Made by a program: the position numbers and the translations under genes
Shown here: one piece after another, positions 26,257-56,478 of the stretch
Numbering within the stretch: the first letter of the stretch is position 1
Layout of the letters: each line of letters starts with the position of its first letter
DNA from: Hysterangium stoloniferum
Taxonomy: Eukaryota; Basidiomycota; Agaricomycetes; Hysterangiales; Hysterangiaceae
DNA length: 64,000 nucleotides
Assembly: GCA_015178975.1 (NCBI GenBank)
Contig: WHVD01000077.1
Span: forward strand, 345,494 to 409,493
Direction: 5' to 3'
Notes under the pieces: generated by a model
The model's input: the letters and a program-made list of their open reading frames with translations, nothing else
What the model was told of the DNA's origin: nothing
Database searches by the model: none

Positions 26257-26700
26257 TGTTAAGTTCTGGATCTCCAGGTGGATTTCCCAGTGGATATTCT
26301 GGACACTTCCCTGAAATATTGTCCACAGAGTTTCCAGGGATTAGTTCAGGGAGTATTGGAGTACCAATGGACTAGCTTCAGCTTATGTGCTGCACCCTCA
26401 TGCACTCACTCAGGTGTCCATATTTCAGAGGGCGGATATATCTGGAGTGTTTACAGATACATGGAGTTCCCCAGATGTCTGGAGTCTGGTGAGTTCCAGA
26501 TATCAAGCATACAGAAAGATGGAAGGGATAAGGCACCAAGTTGAGATACACACTAATTAGAGATTAAAACTAAAGAATAAGTACATGACTATGGAAGACT
26601 ATATAGATGTTCCAATTATTATACTACAAGTCTGGGAGTATAATAAGACCTATTTGGAACTGTTTCCAAACTAACATATAATAACAAGGAGATAAATGAT
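26257..26700 (-). mobile_element. Diverged family B LTR fragment
   Basis: Starts TGTTAAGTTCTGG and aligns in order with the minus-orientation family B LTR: repeated g(t/g)tttcc(a/c) segments, the tagcttcagcttatgtgctgcaccctc block, then ...gtgtccatatttcaga. Much more diverged than the two good copies. The other end is not found. Confidence 0.5.
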
Positions 26701-26962
26701 GATACAAGGTACACCCGAGTCCTTTACATATATGTATCCTATAACAAACACCTGATTTACCATTATATATATTTATGATCTGTCCCTCTTAGATTTTCAC
26801 AGATACTAGTAGGAAGAAATTCTCACAACTCTCACAGAAGTGTAGAGTAACTGGAAAGAAAATAATGACAAATAGCAATGAATTAATAAAAAGGCTAATC
26901 AGAGTCTCAACAAGGAATATAATGTGGTTTGGGTCAGGAATTGCAGAAGTTGACTACCAGAG

Positions 26963-30859: not shown

Positions 30860-32050
30860 GGCAGCCGCATTTCTGGCGGACAGGTTCGATATGTGCCGTG
30901 ATGCAATTTGCTCGAAGGCTCTTATGCATGTTTCGTATGCTAAGGATTTCCATCTGCCCGCTAGTCGTACTATCTCGGGATCAACTCCTTGTGCTAACAA
31001 GAAGGAGGTGCCGCCAATGCGGAAAGAGTGGCCAAAGGTTGTTCCCCATCCACAAGCCTGGAGGACTGAATTAATCCGGTGGAGTGCTGCCTTTTTAACT
31101 ATTGGTCTGACCTCTCCCTTGTTGTCTCACCAGCAAAATAAAGGATTGTCCGGCCCTGCTGGGACAACCTTGGCTAAATTGATCAAGGCATCAATCGGGC
31201 AGACTCCCTGTTGGTCTGTAATAAATACTGCCTGAATCTCTCTGACTTTGGCTGTCTTTGCGGATGGCAGGTCTAAACGAGTGTAGCATTTTCCATCATT
31301 GTCATGACTAATTAGAACATCCTTTCGTTTTAGGTGTTTGGTGGTGTCAAAGTGCAGTCTGGATGTCACGGTAACCTCGCCAAAACACATTAGTCCCCAG
31401 AAGGTGCATGAAGCCACAGCCCAAATGCATGCATCGAATGCATCGCTCAGGTCCAGGATTGACTTCAGTGCGAATAACATTCTCAATTGTACTGGGGGTC
31501 GTGGGGGTCGTTTTCGTGCCGTGCCTTGTAAGTTCTCCAATCCTCGTAGTGACCATTCAATTTTTGTGCGTTCCTCGTCAGACAGTGGTGGTGGCCAGCC
31601 TTGTGCTATATGCCATGCCCTGATTGATGAAAGGTATTTCCTTGTCACGCTGACGGAGATTGTCTTGAATCTGGTTCCAGCAGCCAGGCCATTTCCGAGA
31701 AATGATGGGTCTGCAGCTGCCCAGAGAGCAAAGGAATGGATCACTGGGAAGGACACCGGTAGTCTGTCCACTTCTGCAATCAAGAAGATGTCACAGAAGA
31801 TGTGAAATTTTCGTAGGCCAGTGCCGTAGGCTTTGGGTTCTTTTAAAGAGGCCTCTGACGCGATCGTTGCGATTAATTGGAGGACCGGGTGCTGTATAGT
31901 AGCAGGTGGGGGTGTGTTGACACCTCTCCACTTGAACAGCCTCTCTGCTGCTTTGCATGGAGGTCTCAGTGGGGATGGGGCTAGGTGCCCATGATTAGAT
32001 GATGATATATTCAATGCTCGGGTAAATGGTGCTGGTAGCAATGCCGGTGC
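30860..32050 (-). pseudogene. Ngaro tyrosine recombinase
   Basis: The coding end of the element's last ORF. The N-terminal core-binding part reads LIATIASEASLKEPKAYGTG and RKYLSSIRAWHIAQGWPPPL. The catalytic part has GLMCFGEVTV, where the family has R in R-x-GE: the plus strand shows aca, i.e. TGT Cys in place of CGT Arg. Downstream come HSFRIGGTSFLLAQGVDPEI (the H-x-x-R box), then LAGRWKS and a Tyr in AYETCIRAFE. A TGA follows FCW before DNKGEVRP, where CGA Arg would fit. Both changes are C to T, so this copy is probably not active by itself. Without repair the frame stops at 31127. Confidence 0.75.
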
Positions 32051-33640
32051 TACGATGATTGGATCCGATGACACAAATGGATGGGAATATCCATCTCGGC
32101 ACGGGTGTTTGCCCTCGGGAAACCCCTGAGAAATTCGGTGATGTGTCCTCGTGAGAGGGCATCCAACACGTTGTCTCTTGAGGGTATGTAAATGGCTTTC
32201 AAATGTATTTGGTGGGTGGCTAGTAGGCAGTAAATCTCTAATAGGACCTTGTTTGTCTCCTTGCTGCGGGAACGACCCTTGTTTATAACGGCAACTACCC
32301 CACTGTTGTCGGAGGGCACCAAGAATGTTGAATGAGAAGGGAGTTGATGGCGCAGTAAGCCATTCTGCAGTGCCAATATCAGGCCCAGCTCTACTGCTAC
32401 CGCTTCTGCCCACCCAATATCGCATTCGCAGCGAGGGCCGACTTTGAAACTGGGAGCCCATTTCCAGGCAGCCCAATGGCAGTCGACGATGACACCTATC
32501 CCATAGGATGAGCTGGCATCTCCCCACCAGCCGATGTCTACTACGTCGGGCGATGGAATTGGGAGTTCGTTTGGCAGATGCCGGAGTATGTACTGGATCC
32601 AGGAGAGATCTGCTCGCACTGATGGGGTTGGCAGTAGGTGTGCTCTGCGAGAATGAAAACTGTTTGCGAATGCCGCGATGGACTGGAGAAAGGGCCTGAT
32701 CCATGGGAAGATGGCCGACAAGTGCACCAACTTCCCATGTAGCTTCTCCGCCTCATTTGCTGAGAACTGCGTGCCCTCTGTCATCCACTGCGCGATCAAG
32801 GTGAGGGTTGCGCGTAGTTTCTCTGGTGGCACAGCAACTGTCTTGGAGTTCAAGTCCCATATGAAGCCGATGTACTTCTTCACTGTTGCAAATGGTCGTG
32901 TTTTGCTTCTGCTCCATGGGACCCCAAATTGGGCAGACAAGGTGATGAAGTCCTCTTCTGTCCAAATATGACCTGGAAGGCAAATGGCTAGGAAGTCGTC
33001 CACCCATTTGAGTAGCTGTCCGAAGCCTGCCTTCCGATACAGTGCTATCAGCATATCTGCAATGCTGCCAAAACCTCCAGCGCTGGAGGCCAGGCCAAAT
33101 GCTACTGCTCGGTCGACGTATACCAAGCCGTCCCACGAAATGCAGCAAGTGTTCTATGTGGCAGAGATGTCAAATGTGGCCGCTACGCAGCCCTCCAGTA
33201 AGGATAAGATTAGTGCTGCGGCGTCCGCAAAGGTGCCCCACTCTGTGGGGAAGTTGTCTGAATTTATTCCCCTGTTTATGGAAGGGTATTCTGGGTCTCC
33301 CCGGGGAAAGGAAAGGTCTTGGATTAGGTGGTAAGTGTTGGAGTTTGGTTTTGGGATGAGGCCCAGTGGGGAGGTCTGAAATGGGCCGATGATCTGCTCT
33401 AGCTCCTCTGGGGTGAAGCCCCGAGAGTAGCGTCCAGCCCCTTGTTCGCTCGCTATGTACTTGTATATAAAGTCCATGTCTAAAGAAGAGGATTTGTGAT
33501 TTTCGAAAAATGACAGTGTGCGATACGCAGTCCTTTACCCCAATATCGAAGCCATTGATTAAACCTGAAATAACGTATTCCCACCTGTCGAGTATACCAT
33601 ATTTACTTAATGTACGTGCCGCTTCGATTGGATCAAGCGG
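32050..33640 (-). pseudogene. Ngaro reverse transcriptase and RNase H
   Basis: RT begins just after and overlapping the Gag gene (AARTLSKYGILDRWEYVISG), continues with SPLGLIPKPNSNTYHLIQDL and LSFPRG, then a frame change at about 33150 to a 358-codon stretch. That stretch holds AFGLASSAGGFGSIADMLIA, the catalytic LLKWVDDFLA (a VDD variant of YxDD usual in DIRS-order RTs), and an RNase H-like part with a SDNSGVVAVINKG box and an IPSRDNVLDALSRG end. This is the DIRS/Ngaro RT-RH type. The frame change means the copy is damaged or needs a shift. Confidence 0.78.
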
Positions 33641-33659
33641 CGTCATGACCCTTCTTGGG

Positions 33660-35252
33660 TCAGAGGTGCTTGCAGGCTGCTGCTCCGTGGTCTTGCTCGA
33701 AGCAGATGCTGCACATGTGTGCATTGGTGCAGGTGTCACCCCACCGGCACTGTGTTCCTGTTGCCCACTTGAAACAAAACTGCTTTCCATCAGGGGATGC
33801 CAAGGTGTGCTTGTTTCTGGCATCCCGGGCGATTGGGGCAGTGTTCTTCCCTGCTGATGTGAGTTTTGCTGTGCAGTCAGCCGGAAAGTGCCCCTGTGTC
33901 CCACACCAAAAGCAATGTGAACGATCCCCATCTGTGCGAGGCCTCTTTTGAGGAGAAGTGGAGAGGGGTGGTGGCCCAGCTGGCCCGGGGTGTTTCACTG
34001 GGGAGACTGAGGTGGTGCCGGATCTTGATGCCTGCAGTGCTGCCCGTGTCGAGATGATTGTCAGGGCATTGGTTTCCAGGCAGCTCAAGTCGTGGGTCGG
34101 GTTGCGGGCAGCTGCTTCACGCTGTTGCACATCGTATTCCATGGCCACCTCCCAGCTATGGGATTTCACAATGGTTGTCACAACGGCGTGGTGGGCCGAA
34201 AGCGTGTCAGCTCTGGTGTCACCCCCGTGAATCCTAGTATGGTCGACTGCTGCTGCTGCTGTTGCTGAGAGCCAGTCGATGATGGAGATGCTCCTCTCAT
34301 TATCACGGTCCAGCCCTTTGGCCACAATTTTGCCTGAAGGCGAGAAGGTGAATTCTTCCAAGCCTCTCTCTGCCTTCCGCCGCGCCTCCGTAGTGAGGGC
34401 TGTATAAGGGACATAATGTAGGTTCCTGAAGGCTTCCTCTACCTTCCGAGGAATGGCTGTGAATGGATACAATAAAGATGAGCTGGTTGGCCCCTGACAC
34501 AAGGTATAATAATGAATAGAAGGTGCGGCAAGCAACAGAAAGGGGGGGGGGGCGGGGTTGCACTGTATGACTGGCCCAGAGCCTGGCATCCATTAGATTG
34601 CCATGGGACTCTGCAGGCCAGCCGCATGACGGCTTAACTCATGCTCCTCCCAGGTGCCAGCGGCTCCCTGTGGTGGACTGTCTGTAATGGGGCGCTGGCC
34701 TACAGGCCGGCCCCTGAGCTGTCTGAATGATGCTGCACACTGAGAGTGCTGCAGCTGTGTCCGATTGGGCAAAAGAGAGAGATAGATGGACTCACGGATC
34801 TCTAGGGCATTGGCCTTGAATCCTGGAATTATATCAGGAACCACTGCCTTCCTGGTGGTCCTAGTGTCACCAGCCATGGAGGCCCATATGTTGGCCAGCT
34901 GGACCGTATCTGGGTCAGTGAATAATCTCGTCACATCTGGTGAGACGTCTGGAAGGACCCTGCTGCCATGGATGTCTGGTCTGCCTTGAGCCAACAGTAG
35001 GTCTCGTCGTGCAGCCAAGTGTGCAATTTGGGCCTCTAGTTGATCGATCTCATGAGGGGGGGAGGACTGGCGATCTCCCTGATTGTTGCTGGTGGTCTCC
35101 AGATGTGGGATGACCGGGGAATGTGGGATGCCAGCTGTCGCCGAAAGAGGAGGTTCTGGTCCTGCTTCAGGGTGGGGCGGGTGCCCTTCAGGGTTCAGGT
35201 TGATACCCAAGTGGGTGAACATGCCTTGAGGTAGGGATCCAGATGTCATCAA
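33660..35252 (-). CDS. Ngaro Gag-like ORFs with zinc knuckles
   Basis: Two minus-strand reading frames: 35252-34593 (219 residues, Pro-rich with a helical LEAQIAHLAARRDLLLAQGR segment) and 34589-33660 (309 residues). The second ends with three zinc-binding motifs in a row: a CCHC knuckle CFWCGTQGHFPADC, a CCCH-like CFKWATGTQCRWGDTCTNAH, and CSICFEQDHGAAAC. These suit a nucleocapsid role binding element RNA. The two frames meet around a G-run at 34545, so they were probably one ORF before a frameshift. The second overlaps the start of RT by about 270 nt. Confidence 0.65.
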
Positions 35253-35262
35253 GTGAGCTTTA

Positions 35263-35455
35263 GAAAAGAAAAATTAACTGTGTAGATATGTAGAGATAAG
35301 GAACAGAAGTCAGTGATGAGAAAAACAGAAAGGACTGAGGATCGACAGTGACGTCGTACGAGAACACAAGGCGTGCAAATCCTACATATGCTCAGCTGGA
35401 CGTTGAGTGCCAAACTACTCCCGGCACGCCAGGGATCGTGCAGCACTCGACACTA
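35263..35455. repeat. Split direct repeat A1 (5' end of Ngaro element)
   Basis: First copy of the A repeat, at the 5' end on the minus strand, about 30 bp from the first Gag codon. Nearly identical to 30518-30705. Confidence 0.85.
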
Positions 35456-37299: not shown

Positions 37300-37715
37300 T
37301 GTCACAACTGTCACGAGCCACAACATTGTCACAAATATTCAAAGGTAACTTTCGACAACTCTTCAACTTATCAAATTCAACTCGACAAACCCAAACATTA
37401 TTCAACAACATTGAATCTCTTTCGACATTATGTATGATTTCATTATTAGTTCATAACATAGTCATAACGATACAAAGAAAAACATAAAAGGGCTACAAAA
37501 GGAGCGAGGTAAGTCAGTTGAAATATCTGTAAATTAGTGATACTAGTAATCTATCTTGTCGTAACTTCTTCGACAAATACTTCTGTGAGTTCTTGTGACT
37601 GGTAATAGCCTCTTACTTCATCGACAGGGCGAATATATACTTCATCAAATGAGGCTTTCAAGTTCGATTAGTAGAATATTATTCGACTTTATTGAAGAAT
37701 AATTGATTTGTGACA
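37300..37715 (+). mobile_element. 5' LTR of Gypsy-G
   Basis: 416 bp, TGTCACAACTGTCACGAGCC...GATTTGTGACA. Unlike LTR families A and B. The 3' copy matches well on both sides of its Tc1 insertion. Confidence 0.92.
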
Positions 37716-37880
37716 GTATATTTCAACTATCAATTGTTGATGAAGCCCAGAACACAATCCGAGACTACCAAAGCATTGAGTTCTACAGCACTTCAATCCG
37801 TGGCTCCCATTCTATCACCAAGAGTTATTCAGCCATTGTGAATTCCAGTTTCTCCTTTGACCAAAACTCAAAGAGCTACG

Positions 37881-38960
37881 ATGTCTTCAATTCGAGAACC
37901 TGAAGAAGTTCGAGAAGAGCCGATCTTGCCAATTCAAGAATCCAAATCCCCTTTCACACCTTTGCCTGAATCTCTGCCTCCTGAACCTGTTTTGTCCTCA
38001 GACGAAACAATGTTACGACATTTTGGAGATGTGCTCAGAAAAGTATTGAAGGATCAGATGTCTTCAAAGGAGCCTGAAATCACAGTGAATAAGCCTGAAG
38101 AGTTTACTGGAGAAGAACCTTCAATGTTAAAGAATTTTATCACTCAATGCAAAATGGTTTTTCAATCTCGACCAAAATCATTCGAATCCGATCAATCAAA
38201 AATTACGATGGTAACTTCGTATTTCTGGAAAACAGCTCAAGAGTGGTGGCAACCTTTTCTATTAAATCCCCCGATTCCTCTGCCATCTTTCCTTGTGGAT
38301 TATCTCGACTTTCTAGATGAATTATATGCTCAGTTTGGAGAAATTGATGCAGAAGGAGAAGCCGAAGAAAAACTCAATAATCTTCGAATGAAAGCTCATC
38401 ATCATGTTGCAAAGTATTTGATTCAATTTACAAGCCTCGCTGCTCAAACTCGATATGATGAATTCACTTTACGACGATGATTTTATAAAGGACTTCCAAA
38501 TCAAATTAAGGACGAAATAGTGAAGCTTCAAGTTCAGCCTGAAAGTTTTGCTGAACTGCAAACGGCTGCCCTTCAACTTGATTCTTACTATTGGATGCGA
38601 GAAAATGAACGACAACGTGAAACAGAATCAAGTTCAACTCTGTGAAGATTTGAAAGAAGACAATTGACTATGCCTATGACTTATCCTTCGACATCATGAA
38701 CAACGTCGACTTCAAAACCGATAACTTTGACTTCAAGAACATTTAGGCCTGATGGATGATTACTTCCTGCCAAACGAGACAGAAGATTTAAAGAAGGGTT
38801 ATGTATATTATGTGGAGAAAAAGGCCATTCAGTGAGGGATTGCCTGAAAAGAAAAACTAGTCAAATTGCAAAAGGACGAATCATTGAAGTCCAAGATTCA
38901 ACAACTCAATCCGACCAGTCGAATCAAGCATTGAATGTTAAATCAGAAAATTGAAAAGGG
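37881..38960 (+). pseudogene. Gypsy-G Gag
   Basis: ATG at 37881 (MSSIREPEEVREEP). The capsid-like region reads KPEEFTGEEPSML and VTSYFWKTAQEWWQPFL, then TRYDEFTLRR, stop, FYKGLPNQIKDEI. The zinc knuckle is CILCGEKGHSVRDC near 38811. Five in-frame TGA codons can be placed; those I could align sit where Arg is usual. Confidence 0.8.
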
Positions 38961-41900
38961 ATACTCTTCAGGCATGTGAAGAGTATCGAAGAAAACTCGA
39001 TCATGCTGAAAAAGATTCCTGTGTAATATTACGAGCAGTAACAATTTCTGATTCTTTAATTATTGAACTTAAATCGAAAAAAATTCCAAAAATGAAAGCA
39101 TTAATTGATTCAGGATCTAGTCATCTTTTTACGGACAAAACATTTGCATGACAAAATAATCTATCTTTTGATCAATTGAAAAATTCATTATCATTAAAAT
39201 TAATCGACGGATCAACTCCGACATCAGGACAAATCACATATACGACTACGTTACAAGTTTATTTTCCATCCAGGCAGACTCAAGAATTGCAATTCTTTTT
39301 AACCAATCTTGACTTGTCTTGTCAAGTGGTATGGACTCACCTGGCTGAAGCAATACAATCCTGCGATTGACTGGCGATCTGGCCATATATCATTTGAACC
39401 TACTTCGACACCTTTGACAAATCTGAATCCGATTCAACTGTCAATCAAAACATTATCGGAAGAGAAGCATGCTTTGACCTCGGCGAGTCATTCATCGACA
39501 TCTGAGAAAATCCATGAAGAATTGAAATCTGAGGCTGTCAATCCGAATATCAACATAGTCAATCAGAAGACTTTTTTACAAGCTGCGAAAACAAAAGACT
39601 CTCAAACTTTTGTGGTCTTTATTCGCGATAAATCTTTCAAGACTTGTAAGGCCTCTGGTTCAAAAACTACAACTTCGACTTCATTTGACATACCAAACAT
39701 TCCGACTGAATATTCCGACTTCTCGGATGTTTTCGACAAAAAAGAAGCTGAAGCTTTACCTCAACATTGAAGTTATGATCACGCTATCCCATTAGAAGAA
39801 GGAACTACTCCACCTATGGGTCTGATCTATTCATTATCCGGGACAGAACTTCAAGTGCTACGAGAATATCTCCAAGAGAATCTTTCGAAGAAATTTATTT
39901 GATCATTGCAATCTCCCACCGGCGCACCAATTGTATTCATTAAGAAAAAAGATGGAAGCCTACAACTTTGTGTCGATTATCGAGGACTTAATAAAATCAC
40001 ATGAAAAAACTGATATCCACTTCCTTTAATTCCTGATCTTTTGGATCGACTTTGAATGGTGAAATATTTTACAAAAATTGATCTCTGAGGCACCTATAAT
40101 TTAGTTAGGATTGCTCCAGGTGATGAGTGGAAAATAGCCTTTTGGACTTGATATGGATCTTTCGAATATTTGGTTATGCCTTTTGGACTATGCAATGCTC
40201 TGGCAACCTTTCAACAATTAATGAACAAAATATTTTCAGATTTACTTGATATTTGGGTAATTATCTATCTCGATGACATACTAATATTTTCTGACAATCT
40301 TGAAGAACATTTATGACATGTTCGAGAAAAGTTCTTCAACGGCTTCGACAAAATTGATTATTTGCAAAACCCGAAAAATGTGAATTTCACAAAACCAGTG
40401 TCAAATTTTTAGGATATGTTATTTCTCCTATATGGACGAAGAAAAAATCAAAGTTATTCAAGACTGGCCCGAACCACAAAAAGTCCATGACATTCAATCA
40501 TTTTTAGATTCACAAATTTCTATTGAAGATTTATTCCAAGTTATTCTGAAATCGTTTTACCATTGACTGGACTTACTTGCAAAAAGGTTCAATGGCATTT
40601 CAACGAAAAATGTCGACATGCATTTAACTATTTGAAAAAAGAATTTACTACAGCTCTGATTTTAATTCATTGGAATCCAGACTACAAACCTATACTCAAA
40701 ATTGATGCTTCTGATCATGCCATAGCTTCAATATTTTCTATGCAGACTCCCAATAATGAAATTCATCCAGTTGCTTATCATTCAAGAACTCTTTCGACCT
40801 CCGAAATTAATTACGATACTTATGATAAAGAATTATTGGTAAGATTCGAATCTTTCAAAATTTGGCGACATTATTTTCAAGGAACAAAAGAACCAATTGA
40901 AGTTTTAACGGATCACAAGAATCTCGAATATTTTGCGACAACTCGAATTTTGTCTCAATGACAAGCTCGATGGGCAGAATATTTATTGACCTTTAATTTA
41001 ATTATTCGATTTTGACTGGGAAAACTAAATTTGAAAACAGATGTTCTTTCCAGAAGAAATGACGTTTATCCGAATGAACCTGACTACTTGAAAAAGAATC
41101 CGACTAATCTTTGACCAGTATTTACAAATGAACAAATTCAAGCTTCCTTACATGCAACATATTATCTTCCAATAGCGAGAAAAGCTACTCTCATTAATGG
41201 ATCAACTATTGAGAAATATATTCAAAACTCAAATAGAAGATCAATTTACTCTTGATAAAATTTGGCAGATTTCCGACAGTACCAAAGAAGATTGGCAAAA
41301 GAATGAACAAGATTTTTTGTGTTTCTGAAACAGAATTTACATTCCTGACTATCAAAATCTCCGACTTCGAATTCTTCAATCATGACACGATCATATTACT
41401 ACAGGCCATTTCAGTCAAATGAAAATGTATCGAACAATATATCGAGATTTCTTTTGGCCATAATTCCGACAAGATATTCAAGATTTTATTTGATCATGTG
41501 TAACGTGTACAAAATCGAAAACTCCACAACATCGACCCGTTGGATTACTTAAGCAACTTCCGATTCCTCTTCAACCATGGCATTCAATCTCGATGGACTT
41601 TATTGAACAATTACCGACCTCAAATGGTTACAACTCAATACTCGTAATCGTTGATCGACTTTTGAAACAAGCAATATTCATTCCAACTTATACTATGATC
41701 AATGCCCCCAAACTCGCCTGACTTTTCATATTACATGTCTTTTCAAAACATGGAGTCCCAAGTCATGTAACTTCCAATCAAGGATCGGAATTCGTGTCGC
41801 ATTTCTTTCGATCTCTCAGAACAGCACTCAACATGAAATTACATTTCACTTCGGGATACCATCCTGAAGGCGATGTGATGGACAAACCAAATGAGTCAAT

Positions 41901-42665
41901 CAAACTCTTGAACAATATTTATGAATATATTCCAATTATCAACAAGACAATTGGGCCGAATTACTTCCTTTAGCCGAATTCACTTACAATAATGCACCTT
42001 CCGAAACAACTGGTGAAATGCCATTTTTTGCTAATAAAGGTTATCATCCATTGTTAGAAATTCACCCTGAAAAAGATCTAGCTTCCACTCTAGCTCGTGA
42101 TTATACGACAGATCTCGAAGCTCTACATAAACATCTCAAATCAAATATCCAGAAAGCACAAATATGTTATCAAAAATATTCTGACATACATTGAAGAGAA
42201 TCATTTGACTTGCCAATCCATTCTCAAGTCTTCATACGATCTGACTTCATTTGAATGACTCGACCATTGAAAAAATTATCAGAAAAATTACTAGGCCCAT
42301 TCGAAATCATTGCTCGACCAGGATCTCATTCACACACATTAAAACTTCCCAATCATCTCAAGGGAATTCATCCCGTCTTTCACATTTCAATGTTAGAACC
42401 ATTTTATCCCAATACTTTCCCAAATCGAAAACAACCTCCTCCTCCACCAATTTATGTTGAAGAAGAACCCGAATATGAAATTCGAGAAATTTTGGATTCA
42501 AAATTCGATAAAAGATATAAAGATTTGTTACAATATTTAGTTCCTTGGTTAGGTTATGAAGTAACAGATGAAGAAACTTTGTGGTTAGGATCTCAAGATC
42601 TCGAACATGCTTTCGGCCTTATCGAAGAATTTCATCAAAAATATCCAAATCTTCCACAACATTAA
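38961..42665 (+). pseudogene. Gypsy-G Pol (protease to chromodomain)
   Basis: Protease: ALIDSGSSHLFTD near 39100, with the Asp-Ser-Gly triad. RT: 39.8-40.5 kb ([20 protein letters not shown]; catalytic [10 protein letters not shown]). RNase H: 40.56-41.1 kb (IDASDHAIASIFSMQ; DHKNLEYFATT). Integrase: 41.25-42.2 kb (SMDFIEQLPTSNGYNSILVI; TSGYHPEGD; AEFTYNNAPSETT). C-terminal chromodomain: 42363-42665 (EYEIREILDSKF; YLVPWLGYEVTDEETLW). More than a dozen in-frame TGA codons replace expected CGA, and one Arg is TGG, plus some frameshifts. Confidence 0.88.
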
Positions 42666-42770
42666 AAATTTCATTCAACTATCTCTCAACACTTATTTCA
42701 ACATCTATTCCACAAAATCGAAAAACATATCAAATGCAAAAAACATCAATTAAATCAAATTTTCTAATAT

Positions 42771-43596
42771 CTACAAGTCCTCAATTCCTTCCTCTCTCAA
42801 TTCTGCCATCTTATCAAACCATGCCCCCCTGAATCTCCCACTATTAATGCTAATATCAGTCTCCTCACTAAAATCGCCACTTTCGACCAGTTTCTTCAAC
42901 AAAACTGAAAACTTGTCCCTAAATGCTTTGATCTCACCAATTAAATCTTCCATCCTCTCCTCCATTTTCGACATCCTTTCACTGATCAATTTCATTTCCT
43001 TTTCCAAGTTATTATCCAATCTATTTTCCGACCTTCTCGACTGTCTTGAAAAATTCAACAATCTCAACATAATGTTGCGATGGACATTCTTCCTTTGGCC
43101 AAGTTTGCGAATTCCTGGACTGCCATCTTCACTTTCATTTTCCGACTCTTTGATCACATTTCGACTCTTCTTTTGGTTTCGACACGGTTTTCCGGCTGGC
43201 CTATTCACGGTCCAATAGCAGGCCCGATACAATCAATTACACTGATTGCAATTCGACGATGCATTACTCTTCTTACACACAAGGTTCATGTTAAAACACA
43301 CGGTGCAACTGGAAAAAACAAATTAGCAAAATTCGACAAAAATTCGACAAACCAAAATTTTCCAATTTTGCCTCAAATTCCCATTGCATTCCAATTCCTT
43401 TGCGAGTCACCTTATTGAACGGTTCTTCGCAATCTACTATGCACTTTTTGGGAATTTCTTCTAAAAAATAACTAATTAACTAATTTAAAGAAATACCAGA
43501 AATTGACTTACCAACCACATCAATAACTATATCTCTATCCTCAAAACCCAAAGACTCGGATTCTGATTCAAGTTGATCGACTTCTATATCAGACAT
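42771..43596 (-). pseudogene. Antisense Zn2Cys6 / coiled-coil gene in Gypsy-G
   Basis: Coded opposite to the element, between the chromodomain and the polypurine tract. Exon 1 (43596-43512) is acidic (MSDIEVDQLESESESLGF) and ends at GTAAGT; the intron runs to TTTTTAG at 43461. Exon 2 begins EEIPKKC and, after a likely second intron ending CCAG near 43314, reads a perfect Zn(II)2Cys6 spacing, C-x2-C-x6-C-x8-C-x2-C-x6-C (CTVC, then a third Cys, then CNQC and ACYW), with one TGA inside the last spacer where CGA Arg fits. A Lys/Glu-rich coiled coil follows (ENRLDNNLEKEMKLISERMS and on), ending at 42771. Domain order, acidic first exon and intron position parallel the antisense gene in Gypsy-A (20620-21600). 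The phase of the second intron does not close, so there may be a small indel. Confidence 0.65.
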
Positions 43597-43823
43597 TGAT
43601 TGATGAAGATGAAAATAGACAACAAAAAACTTTTTAAACTCCGACCTCAGGGGCTCGGTCACAAAGGGAGGATACTGTCACAACCATCACAAGTCACAAC
43701 ATTGTCACAAATATTCAAAGGTAACTTTCGACAACTCCTTGACTTATCAAATTCAACTTGACAAACCCGAACATTATTTGACAACATTGAATCTCTTTCA
43801 ACATGTCTCATTTCGATGTCATA

Positions 43824-45422
43824 CAGTGGGTCAAAAAACTGCCCCAATGTTTGTGCATTTTAGAAGGATTGATATTGTGTGAAGGAATTACATCAGCAAA
43901 GATTCTGACAAATTCACATGATATACTAGAACATGTTGGCTATCTACCAACTTAAGAAATCATGTGATTCCAATCAAAGGTCATTGCTCAATAAATCAAA
44001 CAAAATAATCACTCATTGGGGCAGTTTTTTGACCCTCTATTATTTTACAATATAATACTTTGTATGACCCCCGTTTGCCTTTAAAACTGCTTGTATCCTC
44101 TTAGGCATGCTTTCTATTAGCTTCTGAGATGTCTCTGGTGGTATTTCAGTCCACTCCTTTGCCACCCTGTCCCATAATTCATGTACTCCTTTGGGTGGTA
44201 TGTCATATTGTTGGATTTTGGCCTTGAGGTGTTGCCAGAGGTGTTCAATGGGATTTAGATCAGGGGATTGGGCAGGTCACTTCATGGGAATGATGTTATT
44301 GTCAGAAAACCACTGGTCTGCCTTTTTTGAGGTATGTTTTGGATCATTGTCCTATTGGAAGTACCACGTATCCTCAGCCATCTCCAAACTTTCAATGCTC
44401 TCCTCCACTCCCTCCTCCAAGATCTCACAATACTGCACTGCATCCATGTTCCCCTGCATCTCTATCAGCTTCCCCACCCCATTCCAGCCCATACACCCCC
44501 AAATCATCAAGTTATTCCCCCCTCCATGTTTGACAGTTGGTATGGTGGTCCTGTCTGATACTGGTTCCCCTTGTTGCTTCCAAACATATACCTTCCCATC
44601 TGACCCAATCCTATTGATTTTTGTCTCATCAGTCCACAACACCCTCTTCCAGTCCTCCATAGTCCAATTTTCATGGTATTGGGCAAACTTTAGATGTGCT
44701 GACAATGAGACCCCTTGAGCACAGGGGCTTTCTTCTTTGTTGCTGACCTAAAGCCAGCTTCTTTCAACACATTGCTAACCGTCTGAGGAGTGACAGAGGT
44801 AGATATGATGGAATTTATGAATTGGGTGGCTTGGACAGCATTGTCAAGCTTCCCAGAGCTGATTTGACAGATAATTGACTGTTTATCATAAGGGAAAGCT
44901 TGGAAGGATGGCCACCAGGATAATTTTCCTTATACCTCCTTACTGATCCTGCCAATAATACCCTTCCCCAGGCCAGTCCTAGCTTGAATTTGACAATGGG
45001 AATATCCCTCATTGAGGAGAGAAACAACAGAAGAATGCTTTTCAGCAGAGATGGATTTCATAGTGGTGGTAAGGAGTCAAGGAGATGAATGAACAAAGTT
45101 CAACATGCCAAATTGATACAAATAAGGTCACAGGACATGTTGATGATTCATATGACCCACTCCTACCTTATACTGGTGTGTAACATTGAAAATCAGAGAA
45201 AATAATAGAGGGTCAAAAAAACTGCCCCAATGAGTGATTATTTTGTTTGATTTATTGAGCAATGACCTTTGATTGGAATCACATGATTTCTTAAGTTGGT
45301 AGATAGCCAACATGTTCTAGTATATCATGTAAATGTTTCAGAATGTTTGCTGATGTCATTCCTTCACACAATATCAATCTTTCTAAAATGCATAAACATT
45401 GGGGCAGTTTTTTGACCCACTG
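43824..45422 (-). mobile_element. Tc1-like transposon with ~215 bp inverted repeats, TA target
   Basis: 1.6 kb, ends CAGTGGGTCAAAAAACTGCC and its complement, flanked by TA. The terminal inverted repeats are about 215 bp (43824-44040 and 45207-45422) and nearly identical. Each arm itself ends with an inverted copy of the terminal motif (cattggggcagttttttgac at the inner edge), so every arm is a palindrome-like unit with two putative transposase sites. Confidence 0.88.
44040..45061 (-). pseudogene. Tc1/mariner-type transposase, DD34E
   Basis: From ATG at 45061 to the stop at 44040. The N terminus has a helix-turn-helix-like LLNEGYSHCQIQARTGLGKG. Catalytic boxes: LWTDETKINRIGSDG (first Asp), DNDPKHTSKKADQWF (second Asp), SPDLNPIEHLW (Glu, 34-residue spacing). 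Inactivated by stop codons: TAG for Gln before DNDPKH, TGA for Trp before PAQSPD, plus breaks in the middle. Family assignment is firm, activity excluded. Confidence 0.85.
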
Positions 45423-45712
45423 TATATGTTTTCATTATTAGTTCATAACATAGTCATAACAATACAAAGAAAAGCATAAAAGGGCTATGAAAGGAGCGAG
45501 GGAAGTCAGTCGAAATATCTGTAAATTAGTGATACTAGTAATCTATCTTGTCATAACTTCTTCAACAAATACTTCCATGAGTTCTCACGACTGGTAATAG
45601 CCTCTTACTTCATCGACAGGGCGAATATATACTTCGTCGAATGAGGCTTTCAAGTTTGATTAGTAGAATATTATTCGACTTTATTGAAGAATAATTGATT
45701 CGTGACACACAG

Positions 45713-46313
45713 TCAAAGCCAGTAATGCTGATAACAAATGTGAGCACAAACATTAATTTATAAATGTAAATCATTTCACACTCACTGTCAGGGTATTGAC
45801 TTTATTTTATTTTATTTTATTTTATGCACCTACAAACAGTACAGGCAGAGGTGCGAGCATGATTACATAATCACACTGCCGCCTGCATGAAAAGCAGTGG
45901 CACTGTGATGCAATGCAGCATGGCATAGCCAAATGATGGTGCCAATGTAAGCCCGACAGTGCCACCTACACCCAGACAGACACAGAGTGCTTCACACTAT
46001 TAGTAATAATAATTAGTAAAGGTTCCTGACAACTCCATCATATTCCAGTGTAACAAGTCAGCAGCTCACTAATGCTATGTTGTGGGGCCAGCAACTCAAT
46101 ATCCCGTATCCGGAAATATTAGTAATTAGTTAGTATTTATTTAGTATAAAAGACACAATAACATCTTGAATAATACATATAATATGATCATCTTTTGACT
46201 ACAGGTTATGGGCCCTGGCTGAAACTAGAACAAGTATATACATATCTCTACTCTAGAATTCGACGCTCATATCTTTACACCAGAAATTCTAATCAAACAA
46301 TAATTACCTACAA
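45713..46313. other. Spacer with TTTTA microsatellite and Copia LTR/leader
   Basis: Contains (TTTTA)n at about 45801-45825. The right part (about 46130-46240) has a TATAAAAG box and then ggttatgggccctggc, which looks like a Copia LTR end followed by its primer-binding region. LTR limits cannot be fixed. Confidence 0.4.
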
Positions 46314-48545
46314 TGTCACTTAAATGGGGACAATTATTTCACATGGAAACAGAAACTCAAGTGGATCTTAATAGAACAACATCTATGGGTGTATGTGGAT
46401 GGATCGACTGGAGAGCTGATGCTGGCAGACCCTAAGAATATAATGGAAGAAGAACAGTAGGCAATTATGCATTGGAAATGGAAAGATCAACAGGCTTATG
46501 CGGCAATTTGCTTACGCATAAGTGATAATTACTTGGTATACAGTATACAGGAGGATTAATTACCACACTTGATGTTTGGTGAACACTATCAAACATATTC
46601 AAGGCGAAAGGCCCCATTGGTATAATTAACAAGCACTGAGAATTCTTCAAAACATTTGCTGAAGAAGGCCCTGATATGGAGCTACACATATGAAAGCTCA
46701 GAACTTTACAACAAGAACTATGTACATAGTCATGGAGAATATATCTCAGATAAAAATTTCACAAATACTCTACTTACTTCCCTACCAGACTCTTGGTCAA
46801 CATTCATCACTGCTGTAAACATGGGAATTGAGTTGCTTACATCAGATTCATTAATTTCCAGAATCCTGGGAGAAGCCAGATTGTGGAAATTAACTATGGA
46901 GAAATCAACTGTGCTTAAGGCACAAGAAGCGAAAACTACCAGGAAGAAGCACCATACAGGCACTGTCAAGGGAAAGTGCCAAAATTGTGGAGGAAAGGGA
47001 CACTACCAAGCAGATTGCTGGGAAAAAGGTAGTGGAAAGGAGGGCCAAGCACCAAAATGGTGGAAACACAGAAAAGACAAAGACCAGGCCAACCAGACCA
47101 ATGAAAATAATAACAGCAAAGATTTCACATTTGTCTCAAACAAACCAGCAGAGATTATGTCAGCATATTGGCTTGCAGATTCTGCTGCAATGACCCACAT
47201 TGCCAGGAACAGGCAAGACTTTATTAATTACATAGCCAAAATGTTGTCTATTGAAGGGTTGCCCCAGGATTAGTCCTCAAGACCTTGGGACAAGGAACTG
47301 TCAAGTTACAGTTCAAAAACAACAATAAATGCTATTCTGTTGAACTAAGGGACATTAAACAGGCCCCAGATGCACCAAAAAATCTTCCAAGTATTGGGCG
47401 TTTAACTGATAATGGACATGAGGCTCTATTTACATCATCAGGTGTCAATTCAAGTTGCCTAATGGTACTATATTTGGAGAAGGCCAAAAAGTCGGGCACA
47501 TGTACCAAATGAAGGCACAAATCAATATGAGCACCAAACCAAGTGAGTTTGCTGTGATTGCTAAAATGCACACTTGGGACAAATGGCACAGGATACTTGG
47601 CCATATCAGTATTGGAGCGGTCAAATTATTAAAGAAAAATAAACTAGTTACAGGACTACAGGTGGACGAAACACAAGAATTTACTCAATGCAAGGCTTGC
47701 ATACAAGGAAAGGCACATGTGGAGCCATTTCCAAAATGGGCTGAAGACTCTGTAAGCAATATAGGCGAATTAACCATATCCAATGTATGGGGACCAGCTG
47801 CAACCAAAGGACCAAATTATGAGAAGAATTTTTACTCATTCATGGATATTAAAACAAGGCACAGTGTTTTATTTACAGATACATCAAAGGACCAGGCCCT
47901 GAAACACTTCAAAATGTACAAGGCATTTGTTGAAAATCAAATAAACAAAAAATTAAAATGTATTAGGACATACAATGGTGGTGAATACACAAGCAAACTA
48001 TTCAAAGATTTTTGTGCAGAGGAGGGAATAATTACAAAAAACATGGCACCTTATTCCCTTGCCCAAAATGGGATAGCTGAACGGTTAAATTACACAATAG
48101 TCAAACATGCAAGGGCCATGATATATGTGAAGGATTCACTGAAAACCTTATGGCCAGAAGCCATTTCATATGCAAGCTATATCAAGAACTGATCACCTAC
48201 CTGAGCTCTTGGAGCTGACATAACACCCTATGAAGTGTTTTTTGGTAAGAAACCAGATGTGTCATGATTAGAAGAATTTGGGACTAAATGTTGGGTTATG
48301 GTACCTAACAAATGGGGATCAAAATTGGATCCCAAAGCAGAAGAGCATATATTCACAGGAATATCTGAGAACGCTAAAGCCTGGAAGTACTATAACACAA
48401 AACTAAGTGTGTTCAAACTTCTAGAAAAATTACATTTGATATTACAGACACTAAACTATACCCAATAGCTGGAGAAAGTGAGGGTGAAGAAATAACTACT
48501 GTCCCACTCGAGGGGGAGAGTTTCAATGCTGAGCGACCCAGTAGT
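46314..48545 (+). pseudogene. Ty1/Copia polyprotein remnant
   Basis: ATG at 46314 (MSLKWGQLFHMETETQVDLN). Gag continues in pieces (FTNTLLTSLPDSWSTFITAV), then the zinc knuckle CQNCGGKGHYQADC and the protease WLADSAAMTHI. A GAG-pre-integrase zinc domain follows (WHRILGHIS, then CKACIQGKAH), then the integrase core from about 47.7 kb. Two catalytic positions are altered: TISNVWGPA has Asn where Asp is usual, and TYNGGEY has Tyr for Asp; the Glu context is AQNGIAERLN. RT and RNase H are absent: homology stops near 48.5 kb after a polypurine-like gagggggaga. Confidence 0.82.
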
Positions 48546-48548
48546 AGG

Positions 48549-50340
48549 GCCATATACTATAAGTCATCTTAAGATTCTGTGTATTAACTGATGGACATAG
48601 GTCAGTATATAGGGAGCTCACACAGAGGTGATGTGTCAGATTCTTAGGGTAGATACACAGCATGTGATATGCAGATTATAGGGGTATTCACACAAAGGTA
48701 ATTATTGAGATTCTTAATGTACATACACAGAACATGATATACAGATTATATGGGTGTCTACACCATGGTGATTCTCAAGATTCTTAGGGTGAATACATAG
48801 TACATATTATGCAGAAATGGATGTGATCACACAGTGGTGATTATTGAGATTCTTAAGATAGACATACAGTACATGATATTCATATTTTGGGACTGAGCTG
48901 CACTGAGGGGATCTTGAGATCCTTAGGGAAGACACACAGCACATGATATGCAAATTAGAGTGGTGGTCACATACTACAATTATCTTGAGATTTTGTGTAT
49001 TAACTGATGACTGAGCCAGTATATAGGGGCAGTCACCCAGAGTAAAATCTTCAGATTCTAGAGGATGATCCACAGGGTGAAACCTTGAGATTTATAAACT
49101 TGATACATACATATAGCATAATCTCGAGATTCTTAAGAATATAATACAAAGGAAAATCCTGAGATTTGTAAGATTGACCTACACAGCCTATGGGCCATGT
49201 ACTACATGTCATCTTAAGATTCTGTGCATTCACTGATGGAAATGGGTTAGTATAAAGGGATGTTCCCACAGAGCACATTGCTGAGGTTCTTAGAGAAAGC
49301 ACACAAGGCATGGAATCCAGATTATAGGAGTTCTCATACAGCAGTAATTAATGAGATTATTAGGATAGATACACAGTATATAGAGTCTAGGCATATTCAC
49401 AGGGAATGATTCCTGCGATTCATAGGTGAGACACACAGTTCATGATATGCAGATTATAGGGGACTTGTGAAACAGTGGTTCCTGAGATTCTCAGATAAAC
49501 ACATAAATATAATTATGGGATGATCACACAGCATTAATTCTGAAGATTCCTAGGGTCCTCACACAGCACCTTATATACATAATGCAAAGTGGCTAACACA
49601 GAGGTGATTCATGAGCTCTTTCAGGTAGATACACATTCCCTGATATGCACATTATAGGACTGCTCACACAGCAGTGAGTCCTGAGAATCCTAGGGGAGCC
49701 ACAGGAAACATGGTATGCATGTGACAGGGTTTCTGACACAGACGTCATTTCTGAGATTCCTGGGATGGATACACAGTCCCTGATACACAGATTATAGGGG
49801 TGCTCACACAGCAATGATTCCTGAGATCTGTAGGTATATACACAATACATAATATGCAGATTGTTGGGGTGTTCACACATTGGTGTCAATGCATCAGTGA
49901 ACCATATACTATCTCATCTTAAGATTTTGTGCATTAACTGATGGAAATTCCAGTATATAGGTTCAGTAAAACATTGTTAAATATTGAGTTTATGGTATGA
50001 GCCACAGGGAGAGACCCTGAGATTCCATGGGATGACCCACAGAGTTAAATATTGAGATCTTATAAGATGACCAAGAGAGCAAAGTCTCAGGATCCCATGG
50101 GATGAACTACAGAGTAAAATCATGAGATTCATAACAGTAGTGTATATAGTATAATCTTAGGATACCTAAGCATATAGCATAGGGGAAGATATCGAGATCC
50201 CATGGGATGACCAGTAGAGCAAAATATCAGTATTACAAAGGATGAACCACAATGTGAAATCTTAAGATTTGTAAGATAGGCATATACAGTATAATCTGGA
50301 GCATTTAAGCTTATAGTGTAACTGGATATCAGTGTAGACA
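48549..50340. repeat. Satellite-like array of degenerate ~70 bp units
   Basis: Non-coding. A unit of about 70 bp, built on gattcttaggg-agatacacag-acatgatatgcagattata-ggtgttcacaca, recurs at 48638, 48708, 48779, 48847 and 48918 and more loosely to about 49880. A second motif (cttaagattctgtg-attaactgatgga-cagtatataggg) is interspersed near 48560, 48990, 49210 and 49915. From 49990 to 50300 a shorter unit of about 45-60 bp takes over (gagat-ccatgggatgacc-acagag). Confidence 0.85.
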
Positions 50341-51183
50341 GACACTACCAACAGATTCCATCTGCAAGATAGTATGTTCATGGTAGACAGCAGGTCTGAG
50401 AATTGAGATGACAGAACTTAGTGGCTATGTGAATGTTGCACTACAGTGATGATGAAATTGGATACTGATGCCCAGAATGAGATATGAGTCATTTTCATGA
50501 TGGAAAATAGTCTGTGGCATTTCACAAAGCAAACTTGCCAGTTTCCCTATTTGTTTACTTGCAGAACAGCACAGTGTAAGACTAGTATCTGCTGCAGGTG
50601 CAGACAGACACTAGAATGAGTGATGGGGAAGAAACCACTACTATATTATAATCCACATGTACAGAATATATACAAGTGGAGAATAATGGAGTGAGAACAA
50701 TAGGAGTGAGAACAAGGGGTGGAACAATGGGAAATGGTGAACAATGGGATCAAATATTACCAAATCGCAGTGTAGGGAGTGTCACTCCCTTACAACAGTT
50801 ATGCATTTCATACATGAATGATTCAAGGATTGCTTCCAAGTTTCGCTGATAGGCTTATTGTAAATGGTATAATAGCTGGTAGTTTGTACACTATTTTCGG
50901 TGAGTGGGGCATCTCAAGTGTTTGGATCTCTTCCACAACTGGACTACCTCATCCACCCAATTCCAAGTGAAGAAGGATGTAGATCACCTATCCATTTTTT
51001 ATATGGAATCACAGCTCCAATTTGACAATTCTAGCCTCCAGGTGATCTATACCATGGCATAGCACCCTCTGGCAACATCACCTGCATCAGTCGATGTCTG
51101 AGCTATTGGGCTCATGATGCCTACATATGTATGAATGAAAAATGAAAAATGTCTGCACAAGGTACTAATTAAATTAACACAAA
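50341..51183. other. Intergenic, no gene recognised
   Basis: Includes a small gagtgagaacaa duplication near 50690-50720. Nothing coding was seen. Confidence 0.45.
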
Positions 51184-53469
51184 TTAGAAACTATTATCTG
51201 GATAAGACTCTTTTCTCAATTCCTCATAATGCCCCTCTGCAATTTCTGCCAGATTCCTAAAAAGGAGCATCTGACGGTGAGCAAAGGCTGCTGCCCCACG
51301 AATGACATTGTTATTCCATTCTTCTAATCCTTGTCGTCCTTTCCAAATGTTTTCCAGGTATCTGAATGTTTTTCCAATCCGTTCTCCTTCAGCACCGAGT
51401 AAACGTACCTCCTCATCCCATCTGGCATGGCTAGCCTTTGCATGCAACCACTCAATACAAATAACTAGGTGTCTGTTATAAAAATGCAGTTTATGGTTCA
51501 ACAATTCTCACCTTCTGTTGTCCACCTATCCACAGCCCCCCGAATCTCACTTGGACTACTTTCATCATTAAATGTGACCTCCAACTTCCAAAACCAAGCC
51601 AATTCCCGTTTTCCCTTCCCACCACTTGCTGCTTTAGCTTTGGCCATCTCGCCTCTTTTTCCCCATGTCCCATGGTCATCCATCCATTCTGACAGCATAA
51701 TGCAATCAGAGTCAGATAGTTCTTTCAGCTGAGACCATGTGCTGTTAGTCTCTGGAATTTGTGTGTTCCCTCGTAAATGCTCCAATGCTTTGTATGATCG
51801 TTGATAGACCTCCTTCCACTTCTGGACTTGGCTTGTTGGTCTGTCTACCTGAGTTTCTGACCATGTATAAACCCTATTACCACTGCCCTCTGCTGTGCTG
51901 TAATTCTGGCGGATTTCAAATGACTTTAACCCCAATGCTGTACGCAATTTCTTCAATGCATCATGGGCTTGCCCAATTCGCAATTGTTGTTCGACAATAG
52001 CTAGTGCTTCGAGCCCTAACCTCCTTTGCGACTCACAAGGGAAATCTGATGGGAGTCCTAGAAAAGCATTTTCAGGATCACCTTCTGTGCATCTTAGTTC
52101 TTGTATGGCATCACTTGGCATGAAGTCGTTGAGGCTCTGAAACCACATATCCAGTGAACGGCTCATTTTGCGTCTGGATTCCAGCAGTTCAGCCTTCTGT
52201 CCATCAGTGACCATGTGCATCTTTCTGATATGAAGCATCTGTCTATAGATAATATTATCAGGCCAACATCTTTGACGACTAATAATTTTCTGTCTTACTG
52301 GCGCATTTCAATGTCTATTCCCATATTTATCCCTACACTTCTCGACAACCTAACTGAATGTGGAATCTGTAAGTGTGCTGAGTTTCTAATGGATGATTGG
52401 CCTTCTACTGCTTCTTCTTCTTGTAGATTTTTCAGGATTGCCATCCGTGAAGGTGATTCAATAACACGGGGCCTGTACTGACTGCCATTAGACTCCACTG
52501 ACTCCTTAGTGAGTTTTTCAACCAAGTCTATGCCCATGGCCTCCTCGAGAGCCTCCAATGTCTCACATTTTCTTGCACACATAGCCTGCCCTATCCGGAA
52601 AGCCTTCAAGACTCGGATACCTTTGGAGTGTGTCAATTAATATTATATATCCCGATTGTCATTACTCACTCTCCCCAGTTGCTTTTCTCCAGTTCCAATC
52701 ACACATGGCATCGTTTATTGTGTCACGACGATGACCAAATCCTATTTCACGGATCGAGGTTGCCATCATCCCTAAGGCCGCCCAATTACTTTCCACCAAC
52801 TCTCCGCAAGTGCGGCCCACATTCTTTGTCCAATTGAATGAAAATTTGTCCGCACACCCCTCAATATGTGCTGCAAGATGGAATTTTGGGACAAGCCAAA
52901 CTACGATTAATGCTGAAAATAGTGATTGTTCAGTGGGTGTCATCAGTGGCCAAGACCTCTCTGCAATTCGTTCCATGAAATTAATATGATACTTGCAGGC
53001 AATATCATATGAAATGATGATGCGATGTAAACCCATCTGCATAATCCAGAGAAGTACTTGCACAAGTGCAAAATCGAAGTTCACAAATCTAGGTGATATC
53101 AAATCTCGCAACCCACTTGCCGATACCTAGGAGCTCACCTTTCCCCCTTTGCTAAGGCAACTGTACCACCTTTGAAAAATGCACCGCTTCTGGCACAACT
53201 GATTGAGATTAAACCAGTACATGGCCTATTCTTGGATTGACCTGACCTGGCTGCATCTCCAGCACAGAATCCTCAGCATGTTATATCCTTGGCTTTACTC
53301 AAGTATGTATCATCTGATCACACCAAATTGAGCACTCACAGATGTATCATTATCCACCCCTCCCCGCACCTGACAAAAATCCTTATATTTGTCATTTTCT
53401 GCATAGAATGCACCATCACCAAATAGTGACGGGTCTGAAGCCTCCCCGCCACCTTTATTATTACGTCGC
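51184..53469 (-). pseudogene. KDZ-family transposase, 5'-truncated
   Basis: Minus strand with several introns. The first recognised exon (from about 53469) reads ASDPSLFGDGAFYAENDKY and ends at GTGAGT (53339). Next comes a Cys-containing exon (CTGLISISCARSGAFFKGGT, ending KGER). The core is at about 53090-52670: SYDIACKYHINFMERI, VPKFHLAAHIEGCADKFSFN, then GRTCGELVESNWAALG. A long helical C-terminal part follows (52630-51184) with EALAIVEQQLRIGQAHDALK and WLHAKASHARWDEEVRLLGA, split by introns such as GTAAGA...CTATAG at about 52240-52298. These are hallmarks of Kyakuja-Dileera-Zisupton transposases. The N terminus, including the first catalytic Asp region, is missing: sequence switches to a FunK1 gene at about 53470-53483. 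Confidence 0.78.
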
Positions 53470-55938: not shown

Positions 55939-56032
55939 TGCCTCAGGAGGGAGTCGAACCCACAACCTTAAGAATCTTACCCGGTCAGAGGGACTGTAAG
56001 ACTCTCACGCTCTACCGCTGAGCTACCGAAGC
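55939..56032 (-). tRNA. tRNA-Lys(CTT)-like gene with intron, copy 1
   Basis: Cloverleaf: acceptor GCTTCGG/CTGAGGC (one G-T), D-arm GCTC/GAGC, anticodon stem TGAGA/TCTTA with anticodon CTT, intron of 22 nt (CAGTCCC...GGGTAAGA) after position 37. The intron's TAAGA pairs with the anticodon region, as usual for tRNA introns. The T-arm GTGGG/CCCTC has one mismatch, so it may be a pseudogene. Confidence 0.72.
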
Positions 56033-56384: not shown

Positions 56385-56478
56385 TGCTTCAGGCGGGAGT
56401 CGAACCCACAACCTCAAGAATCTTACCCGGTCAGAGGGACTGTAAGAATCTCACGCTCTACCGCTGAGCTACCGAAGC
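56385..56478 (-). tRNA. tRNA-Lys(CTT)-like gene with intron, copy 2
   Basis: The best-paired copy: acceptor GCTTCGG/CTGAAGC, anticodon stem TGAGA/TCTTG, loop TTCTTA then intron, T-arm GTGGG/CCCGC with TTCGACT loop. Compared with copy 3 the acceptor stem differs by a compensatory T-A for C-G. Confidence 0.8.

Follow-up and report, generated by a model that had tools for sequence, protein, structure and literature searches.

A conserved antisense gene with a six-cysteine motif in four chromovirus families of Hysterangium stoloniferum

It is generally assumed that gag and pol suffice for Ty3/Gypsy elements. Antisense genes are found in retroelements: HBZ of HTLV is a bZIP protein and is spliced, and brtn of the Botrytis Boty elements was reportedly the subject of Zhao et al. 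in 2011. The Boty Gypsy elements of Botrytis cinerea carry brtn in antisense orientation, according to the passages on them in PMC7264820, PMC4227169, PMC8365987 and PMC5987419. Antisense extra genes also occur in plant LTR retrotransposons (parts of PMC11963269 and PMC7264820). The gene23 of the plant element Grande is described in a section of PMC7264820 as an antisense gene that has a promoter of its own and encodes a nuclear protein, and HBZ is mentioned in a passage of PMC11963269. The role of antisense extra genes in LTR retrotransposons is an old question.

The open-licence literature searched yielded no fungal retrotransposon with a zinc-cluster gene. The main text of two fungal surveys (PMC2864245, PMC3248453) does not contain the word 'antisense', and the relevant parts of a rotifer paper (PMC5408684) use it solely for small RNAs. 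A preliminary description of the locus knew of no Zn2Cys6 gene in a fungal chromovirus. This held for the zinc-cluster version, of which no example was found, but an antisense gene as such is known from Boty (brtn).

The window is the whole stretch that was analysed, 64,000 nucleotides of contig WHVD01000077.1 (positions 345,494 to 409,493, assembly GCA_015178975.1). The genome searched comprised 111 Mb in 554 contigs. The features are listed in Table 1.

The host element in the window is a chromovirus of family A. Its LTR pair has an identity of 91–94% over two blocks. The piece covering the integrase end and the chromodomain occurs at 83 places in the genome with 75–100% identity. The 3' LTR is split by an insertion with 210-nt inverted ends (97% complementary), which we take from its translation to be Tc1/mariner-like. 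An antisense gene had been claimed between the chromodomain and the 3' LTR. It was found exactly there, with exon 1, a GTAAGT...TAG intron, the six-Cys motif and a K/E-rich helix. The claimed perfect spacing of the cysteines is present as well, although in the window copy an in-frame TGA (43235-43233) interrupts the motif. The donor of intron 2 is deleted in this copy, and most other copies have a GTAATT...CAG intron at this point. Because of the TGA in the motif and the lost donor, the window copy is unable to make the protein under this gene model.

Table 1. Positions of the features of families A and D in the window and of tandem zinc-cluster loci elsewhere in the genome
Feature	Position	Strand	Remark
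5' LTR, chromovirus family A	37300-37715	+	direct repeat of 3' LTR
gag-pol, family A	37842-42665	+	decayed, many TGA (ORF list)
Integrase C-terminus and chromodomain, family A	42255-42665	+	
Antisense gene, family A, predicted 3 exons	43596-42771	-	between chromodomain and 3' LTR, opposite gag-pol
Exon 1, family A	43512-43596	-	ATG at 43596, acidic, precedes GTAAGT
Exon 2, family A	43357-43460	-	3' end uncertain: intron-2 donor deleted in window copy
Exon 3, family A	42771-43308	-	six-Cys motif, SR-rich stretch, heptad helix; stop TAG 42773-42771
Six-Cys motif C-x2-C-x6-C-x8-C-x2-C-x6-C, family A	43218-43307	-	K/E-rich helix further on
3' LTR of family A, first part (inner end)	43676-43804	+	repeat comparison
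Tc1/mariner-like insertion splitting the 3' LTR of A	43821-45425	-	inverted ends, transposase-like fragments
3' LTR of family A, second part	45418-45707	+	repeat comparison
3' LTR, chromovirus family D	19594-20423	-	element on - strand
TATATAAG (TATA), family D	20574-20581	+	151 nt inside LTR edge; 59 nt to ATG 20633
Antisense gene exon 1, family D	20633-20937	+	charged; frame broken in window copy; donor GTAAGT at 20938
Antisense gene exon 2, family D	20995-21051	+	short, acidic; flanked by phase-0 introns
Antisense gene exon 3, family D	21101-21600	+	window copy frameshifted after about 21290
Six-Cys motif C2-C6-C9-C2-C6-C, family D	21152-21244	+	pattern scan
Integrase C-terminus/chromodomain, family D	21796-22161	-	
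Other LTR, family D	26963-27776		
Tandem Zn_clus loci	C56:27390-45410, C115:74483-75050, C209, C308, C309, C85, C37		Zn_clus genome search

Some further observations concern the rest of the window. A Copia-like element, followed by AGATTC words (17 versus 1), lies at 45707-52000; 14 of these words stand at 48572-50353, partly with a spacing of ~70 nt. The pattern scan found no antisense six-Cys gene in this element. Two near-identical ORFs of 276-277 aa (LPVEILRIIIETAARDN..) at 1873-2703 and 10576-11409 (-), about 8.7 kb apart, are probably a duplication. A series of ORFs at 31127-35273 (-) resembles, from its translation only, a tyrosine-recombinase (DIRS-like) retroelement. Three 94-nt tRNA-like matches were above the Rfam cut-off (55939-56032 and 56385-56478 on the minus strand, 60233-60326 on the plus strand). 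ARAGORN reported two of the three, with the anticodons tac and tta (tta named Stop), and beyond these matches Rfam and ARAGORN found nothing in the window.

Thirty copies of family A were aligned. They had been chosen for their resemblance to this antisense region, and the frequency of the gene was therefore taken from chromodomain lists instead. Intron 1 has the donor GTAAGT in 29 of the 30 copies and the acceptor TAG in all of them. The donor of intron 2 is GTAATT in 19 copies and GTAAAT in one, and is altered or absent in the rest; the acceptor [CT]AG is present in 30/30. In one copy (L029) the beginning of exon 1 is missing. Eight copies have no stop or frameshift in the whole gene (L013, L015, L016, L017, L019, L021, L026, L028), and in two of these (L013 and L026) the G of donor 2 is gone. 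The protein of L028 has 242 residues; it starts with MSDIEVDQ, contains CTMCFNTNFVCKKSNASSNCDRCNRLHRAC and continues with the SR-rich stretch and the K,E-rich helix.

We checked all six frames of the window for the strict pattern C-x2-C-x6-C-x5-12-C-x2-C-x6-8-C, with at most one stop tolerated. There were two places, compared with a mean of 0.0 in 30 first-order Markov simulations. The second place belongs to a like gene in another chromovirus, of family D.

Three further chromovirus families (B, C and D) have a six-Cys gene in the same place and orientation as family A. The gene was read in the loci L061-L063 (family B) and L064 (family C), and in a single copy of D, that of the window. In B (L061) and C (L064), it has two phase-0 introns and the six-Cys motif in exon 3. 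Exon 1 is charged and ends in -GK; exon 2 is short and acidic and ends in -GPSSPK. Family D has the same plan, with exon 2 ending in -ESPQK.

The gene is present in most copies and is conserved. Searches of the genome with exon 3 gave at least 168 matches for A, a number that counts fragments and comes from scoring 150 of 276 candidates. There were at least 150 matches for B (150 of 493 scored) and at least 150 for C (150 of 942 scored). The 21101-21289 piece of family D had at least 150 matches at 70–100% identity (150 of 854 scored). Around the first-listed chromodomain matches of family A, window included, an exon-3 match lay nearby on the opposite strand in 20/20 cases. For B and C it was 17 of the first 20, among the at least 150 exon-3 matches listed per family. 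The gene had been proposed as a standing part of the element, and the 20 family A matches and the three further families bear this out. Nor do related intact elements lack the ORF, a possibility raised in the preliminary description: relatives with long open gag-pol frames have the gene.

From a search with the chromodomain model PF00385 (150 of 2268 candidates scored), five other chromodomain matches (L094-L098) were read, and no antisense six-Cys frame was present in the 2 kb inspected downstream of each. The antisense gene is thus not in every chromovirus of the genome. L094 and L097 belong to a single family (93%), which leaves at most four kinds in the gene-less set; in L095 and L098 other ORFs follow shortly after the chromodomain, and both are perhaps interrupted copies. 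Two gene-less loci (L094:1-2050 and L096:1-2047) have a related sense-strand ORF after the chromodomain (..SSKEYRR.LH..G.R.PYAPDDPV..).

The genes of A and of B–D likely have a single origin, judging from their layout. They share place, orientation, two introns and a near-identical Cys spacing, and A matches D best. The profile alignments of the B, C and D proteins with each other had E-values of 1e-6 to 6e-6 (probability 86–91%). For A versus D the E-value was 1.9e-4 (probability 48%); A versus B and A versus C were weak (about 0.06). This weak match would also fit a separate gain of the gene by A, with a convergent six-Cys layout. The intron phases differ (1 and 2 in A, 0 and 0 in B, C and D), and so does the placement of the helix with respect to the motif, a clear helix lying C-terminal to the cysteines in A. 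By chromodomain identity, B, C and D form one group (75–87%), and A is no closer to them (47–54%) than is, roughly, L095 (41–52%), the nearest of the gene-less loci (27–52% to A–D overall). However, in the chromodomains of A–D a loop is longer and TD is inserted, and both features are missing from L094-L098 in the alignment. We regard two separate gains as unlikely.

The selection on the reading frame was measured in exon 3 as the median NG86 dN/dS (A, n=30; B, n=15, first 131 codons; C, n=16). In the predicted frame, it was 0.15 for A, 0.15 for B and 0.26 for C. The other frames gave 0.86–1.56, except the mirror frame (reverse, third positions in common) with 0.25, 0.29 and 0.31. The numbers of stops in the true versus the mirror frame were 33 versus 91 in A, 3 versus 66 in B and 0 versus 47 in C; the other frames had 36–616 in total. 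Exon 3 was fully open in 10 of 30 (A), 12 of 15 (B) and 16 of 16 rows (C), and in none in the mirror frame. In exon 1 of family C, 8 of the 16 copies have stops within the first 49 codons. The variants that make stops in the antisense gene of A are mostly of the CpG type: there are seven in all and two without CpG-type changes.

Two simple explanations were rejected. The frame-specific selection and the avoidance of stops speak against a chance ORF. The many copies and the four families speak against a single capture of a host gene by just one copy.

Changes shared by at least two copies mostly arose while the lineage moved, and singletons mostly after insertion. With CpG-type changes removed, the N/S ratios of shared versus singleton changes were 0.18 versus 0.71 in A, 0.11 versus 0.42 in B and 0.36 versus 0.49 in C (CpG-type included: 0.29/0.81, 0.24/0.50 and 0.41/0.55). 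Off-frame ratios without CpG-type changes were 1.04–3.16. The contrast is clear in A and B and small in C. The pattern in A and B suggests that selection acted on the element while it was mobile, and not on the host. In exons 1 and 2 of A, the ratios were 0.26 (shared) and 0.97 (singleton).

For comparison, the integrase/chromodomain end of A was aligned by BLAST anchoring in 26 of the 30 copies, four rows being dropped as partial. Its N/S ratios were 0.11 versus 0.49, based on just 13 shared changes; in these 26 copies, exon 3 gave 0.17 versus 0.57. In family A, the constraint on the antisense gene is similar to that on the integrase end.

The six Cys codons were checked separately. The cells changed were 0/180 in A, 1/90 in B and 0/96 in C (total 1/366), against 12–14% for other codons; as the copies are related, these counts are not independent trials. 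The preliminary description had proposed to compute dN/dS and to look for purifying selection on the six Cys codons; dN/dS was 0.15–0.26, and the Cys codons are under purifying selection (1/366 cells).

The Cys spacing is 2-6-8-2-6 in A, 2-6-10-2-6 in B and C and 2-6-9-2-6 in D, which is the layout of a binuclear cluster. The HMM search with Zn_clus (PF00172), proposed beforehand as a check, was run on A, B and C and stayed below the cut-off. The protein of A had no match at E≤10; the whole exon 3 of C scored 8.7 bits, and the Cys cut-outs of C and B scored 12.9 and 13.3 bits (cut-off 21). In the genome search, one copy of B (C203) reached 16.9 bits, again under the 21-bit cut-off. Since the cut-off was missed, the protein is called Zn2Cys6-like here and not a member of PF00172.

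The same model exceeded its cut-off on its own at 61 of the 83 places listed in the genome search. Repeated loci with at least two Zn_clus matches per open frame, in steps of roughly 100–130 nt, are maybe another mobile family (Table 1).

In Zn2Cys6 factors, DNA is contacted by basic residues in the loop from Cys 2 to Cys 3. This loop has three basic residues in B (TKRGRT), one in C (SIRNMT) and none in A (FNTNFV) and D (NDWNTE). In a 35-residue segment of A, 10 of 10 heptad a/d positions are L/I/V/M/F. The heptad score is 0.96 versus 0.54 for the best of 100 shuffles (window copy: 0.92 versus 0.50), but the best heptad segments of B and C did not beat the shuffles (0.60 versus 0.60 and 0.50 versus 0.64). 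The combination of Zn2Cys6 and coiled coil had been read as a transcription factor. The spacing and the heptad of A support this reading in part, while the missed Zn_clus cut-off and the loop of A without basic residues speak against it. Pfam scans of A, B and C found no bZIP family and no other transcription-factor domain. On this layout, the six cysteines are predicted to hold zinc as in Zn2Cys6 factors, and the helix of A is predicted to dimerise.

A single-sequence AlphaFold run on the Cys piece of D, without relatives, gave a mean pLDDT of 71 (five models, 41–71), and no PDB match was found at E≤0.001; the model was set aside as uninformative. Among PDB sequences, there was none for C and one chance-like match for B. 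The protein database gave zero candidates for residues 40–120 of A and residues 108–172 of C. For exon 3 of C there were 221 candidates, none at E≤0.01. These negatives are weak evidence of novelty. Viral contigs contained no relative of the C protein or the C chromodomain.

TATAAAA was found in 16 of 16 copies of C and CATATAAAA in 14 of 15 copies of B, the 15th having unrelated sequence there. In B, C and D, the TATA lies about 115–150 nt inward from the LTR edge. The distance from TATA to ATG was 56 nt in C, 58 nt in B and 59 nt in D, where the ATG of the copy is out of frame with the rest of exon 1. No TATA was seen in the family A copies inspected.

Taken at about even chances, the conserved antisense gene would encode a zinc-binding dimer that acts as a nuclear regulator of the element's own transcription. 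The antisense mRNA would be transcribed from a promoter between pol and the LTR, just inside the 3' LTR. The six cysteines would bind zinc and the helix would dimerise; the protein would work in the nucleus, with the LTR or the chromatin of the element as its target, and the outcome would be control of the element's own expression. The antisense direction would explain how the introns could persist: splicing would not remove them from the sense genomic RNA, which is the template for reverse transcription.

Other functions have to be weighed against this regulator. The protein might join the pre-integration complex or the chromatin and steer insertion, or help nuclear entry. The gene occurs in four related chromodomain families and is absent within 2 kb of the five other chromodomain matches, the selection roughly equals that on the integrase end, and nuclear import is raised in part of a review of extra ORFs (PMC7264820). 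Yet a gene driven by an antisense promoter of its own would not be coupled to the output of Gag-Pol, and packaging is hypothetical, so we find this function rather unlikely. A helper acting on the RNA of the element, similar to a nucleocapsid, would suit a basic, Cys-rich and SR-rich protein. It is consistent with the SR-rich stretch C-terminal to the Cys motif of A and with family words biased to the sense strand. We think it very unlikely, as the spacing is that of a binuclear cluster and not of a CCHC knuckle, and the Gag of family A already has such a knuckle (CILCGEKGHSVRDC). That antisense RNA alone matters (dsRNA or interference), with an incidental reading frame, has a parallel in retroelement antisense RNAs that can work without a protein (a passage of PMC7264820). 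The frame-specific dN/dS, the avoidance of stops and the conservation of the cysteines disfavour it so strongly that it is an extremely improbable account.

Short oriented words bear on the idea of an anti-silencing factor like VANC, which would bind scattered motifs of its family and keep the element unmethylated. The words were counted in the elements of A (37300-43820) and D (19594-27776) and in L061/L092 and L064/L093. The family words (TTCGAC; GGACTC; TCGGCC; TTCCG) are over-represented in LTR, coding and antisense parts. In A, TTCGAC occurs 18 versus 1 times by strand (371 versus 54 across the 4-kb sequences of the 30 A loci with their flanks). TCGGCC in B occurs 11 versus 0 times in the 3' 2.4 kb and 15 versus 1 times over 5.9 kb. 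In D, there are 17 versus 0 GGAGTCC on the plus strand of the window and 23 versus 0 GGACTC in sense. This strand bias in A, B and D resembles that of the VANC21 sites, which are also dense and in one orientation (parts of PMC5735166), and CpG-type decay marks old copies. However, the words of C are less biased (CTTCCG 20 versus 2, TTCCGA 22 versus 8) and partly in frame. When the 3-kb pol pieces were compared with 40 shuffles, a word excess was found in one of the two D pieces and, marginally, in C; the pol pieces of A, B, the second D and one gene-less element had none. The Copia element of the window, too, has a word in one orientation, there arranged in a local array. The oriented words are hence a lead, not a result, and we consider an anti-silencing factor quite improbable. 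Doubtful to a greater degree is self-recognition in a clade of fungal chromoviruses, where the antisense zinc-cluster protein would bind its own oriented motif and counter silencing. If true, this would be the first VANC-like system in LTR retrotransposons.

A conserved, intron-bearing antisense gene in hundreds of copies of several families suggests that these elements use a further function. With a small predicted metal-cluster protein, a putative dimer helix in A and four families beside gene-less elements, the function of the antisense gene is directly testable.

The regulator proposed here can be compared with several known systems. The brtn of Boty is likewise an extra gene in antisense orientation, carried by a chromodomain-bearing Gypsy element of a fungus; the passages describing it mention no zinc-cluster motif or introns, and the comparison is by description alone. 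VANC of the VANDAL DNA transposons is also encoded by the element and is accompanied by dense family motifs in one orientation (parts of PMC5735166). It differs in that it belongs to a DNA transposon, is another protein and has motifs mainly in non-coding parts, and the link between motif and protein is hypothetical in our case. The fungal Zn(II)2Cys6 factors share the six cysteines, the 2-6-(8-10)-2-6 spacing and, with A, the heptad helix; here the score is below the cut-off, and A and D are without the basic loop. HBZ is similar in being antisense, spliced, near the 3' LTR and a nuclear regulator (splicing and function being predicted in our case). It is a bZIP protein and not a Cys cluster, and its promoter is inside the LTR, whereas the TATA found here lies 115–150 nt inside the LTR edge. 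The plant antisense aORF-3R, between pol and the 3' LTR, is alike in place, orientation, presence in most copies and conservation. The plant antisense genes have other domains (TRP28, SMC), the passages on them mention no six-Cys motif, and Retand is of a non-chromovirus lineage. By analogy, gene23 of Grande would be the best functional parallel.
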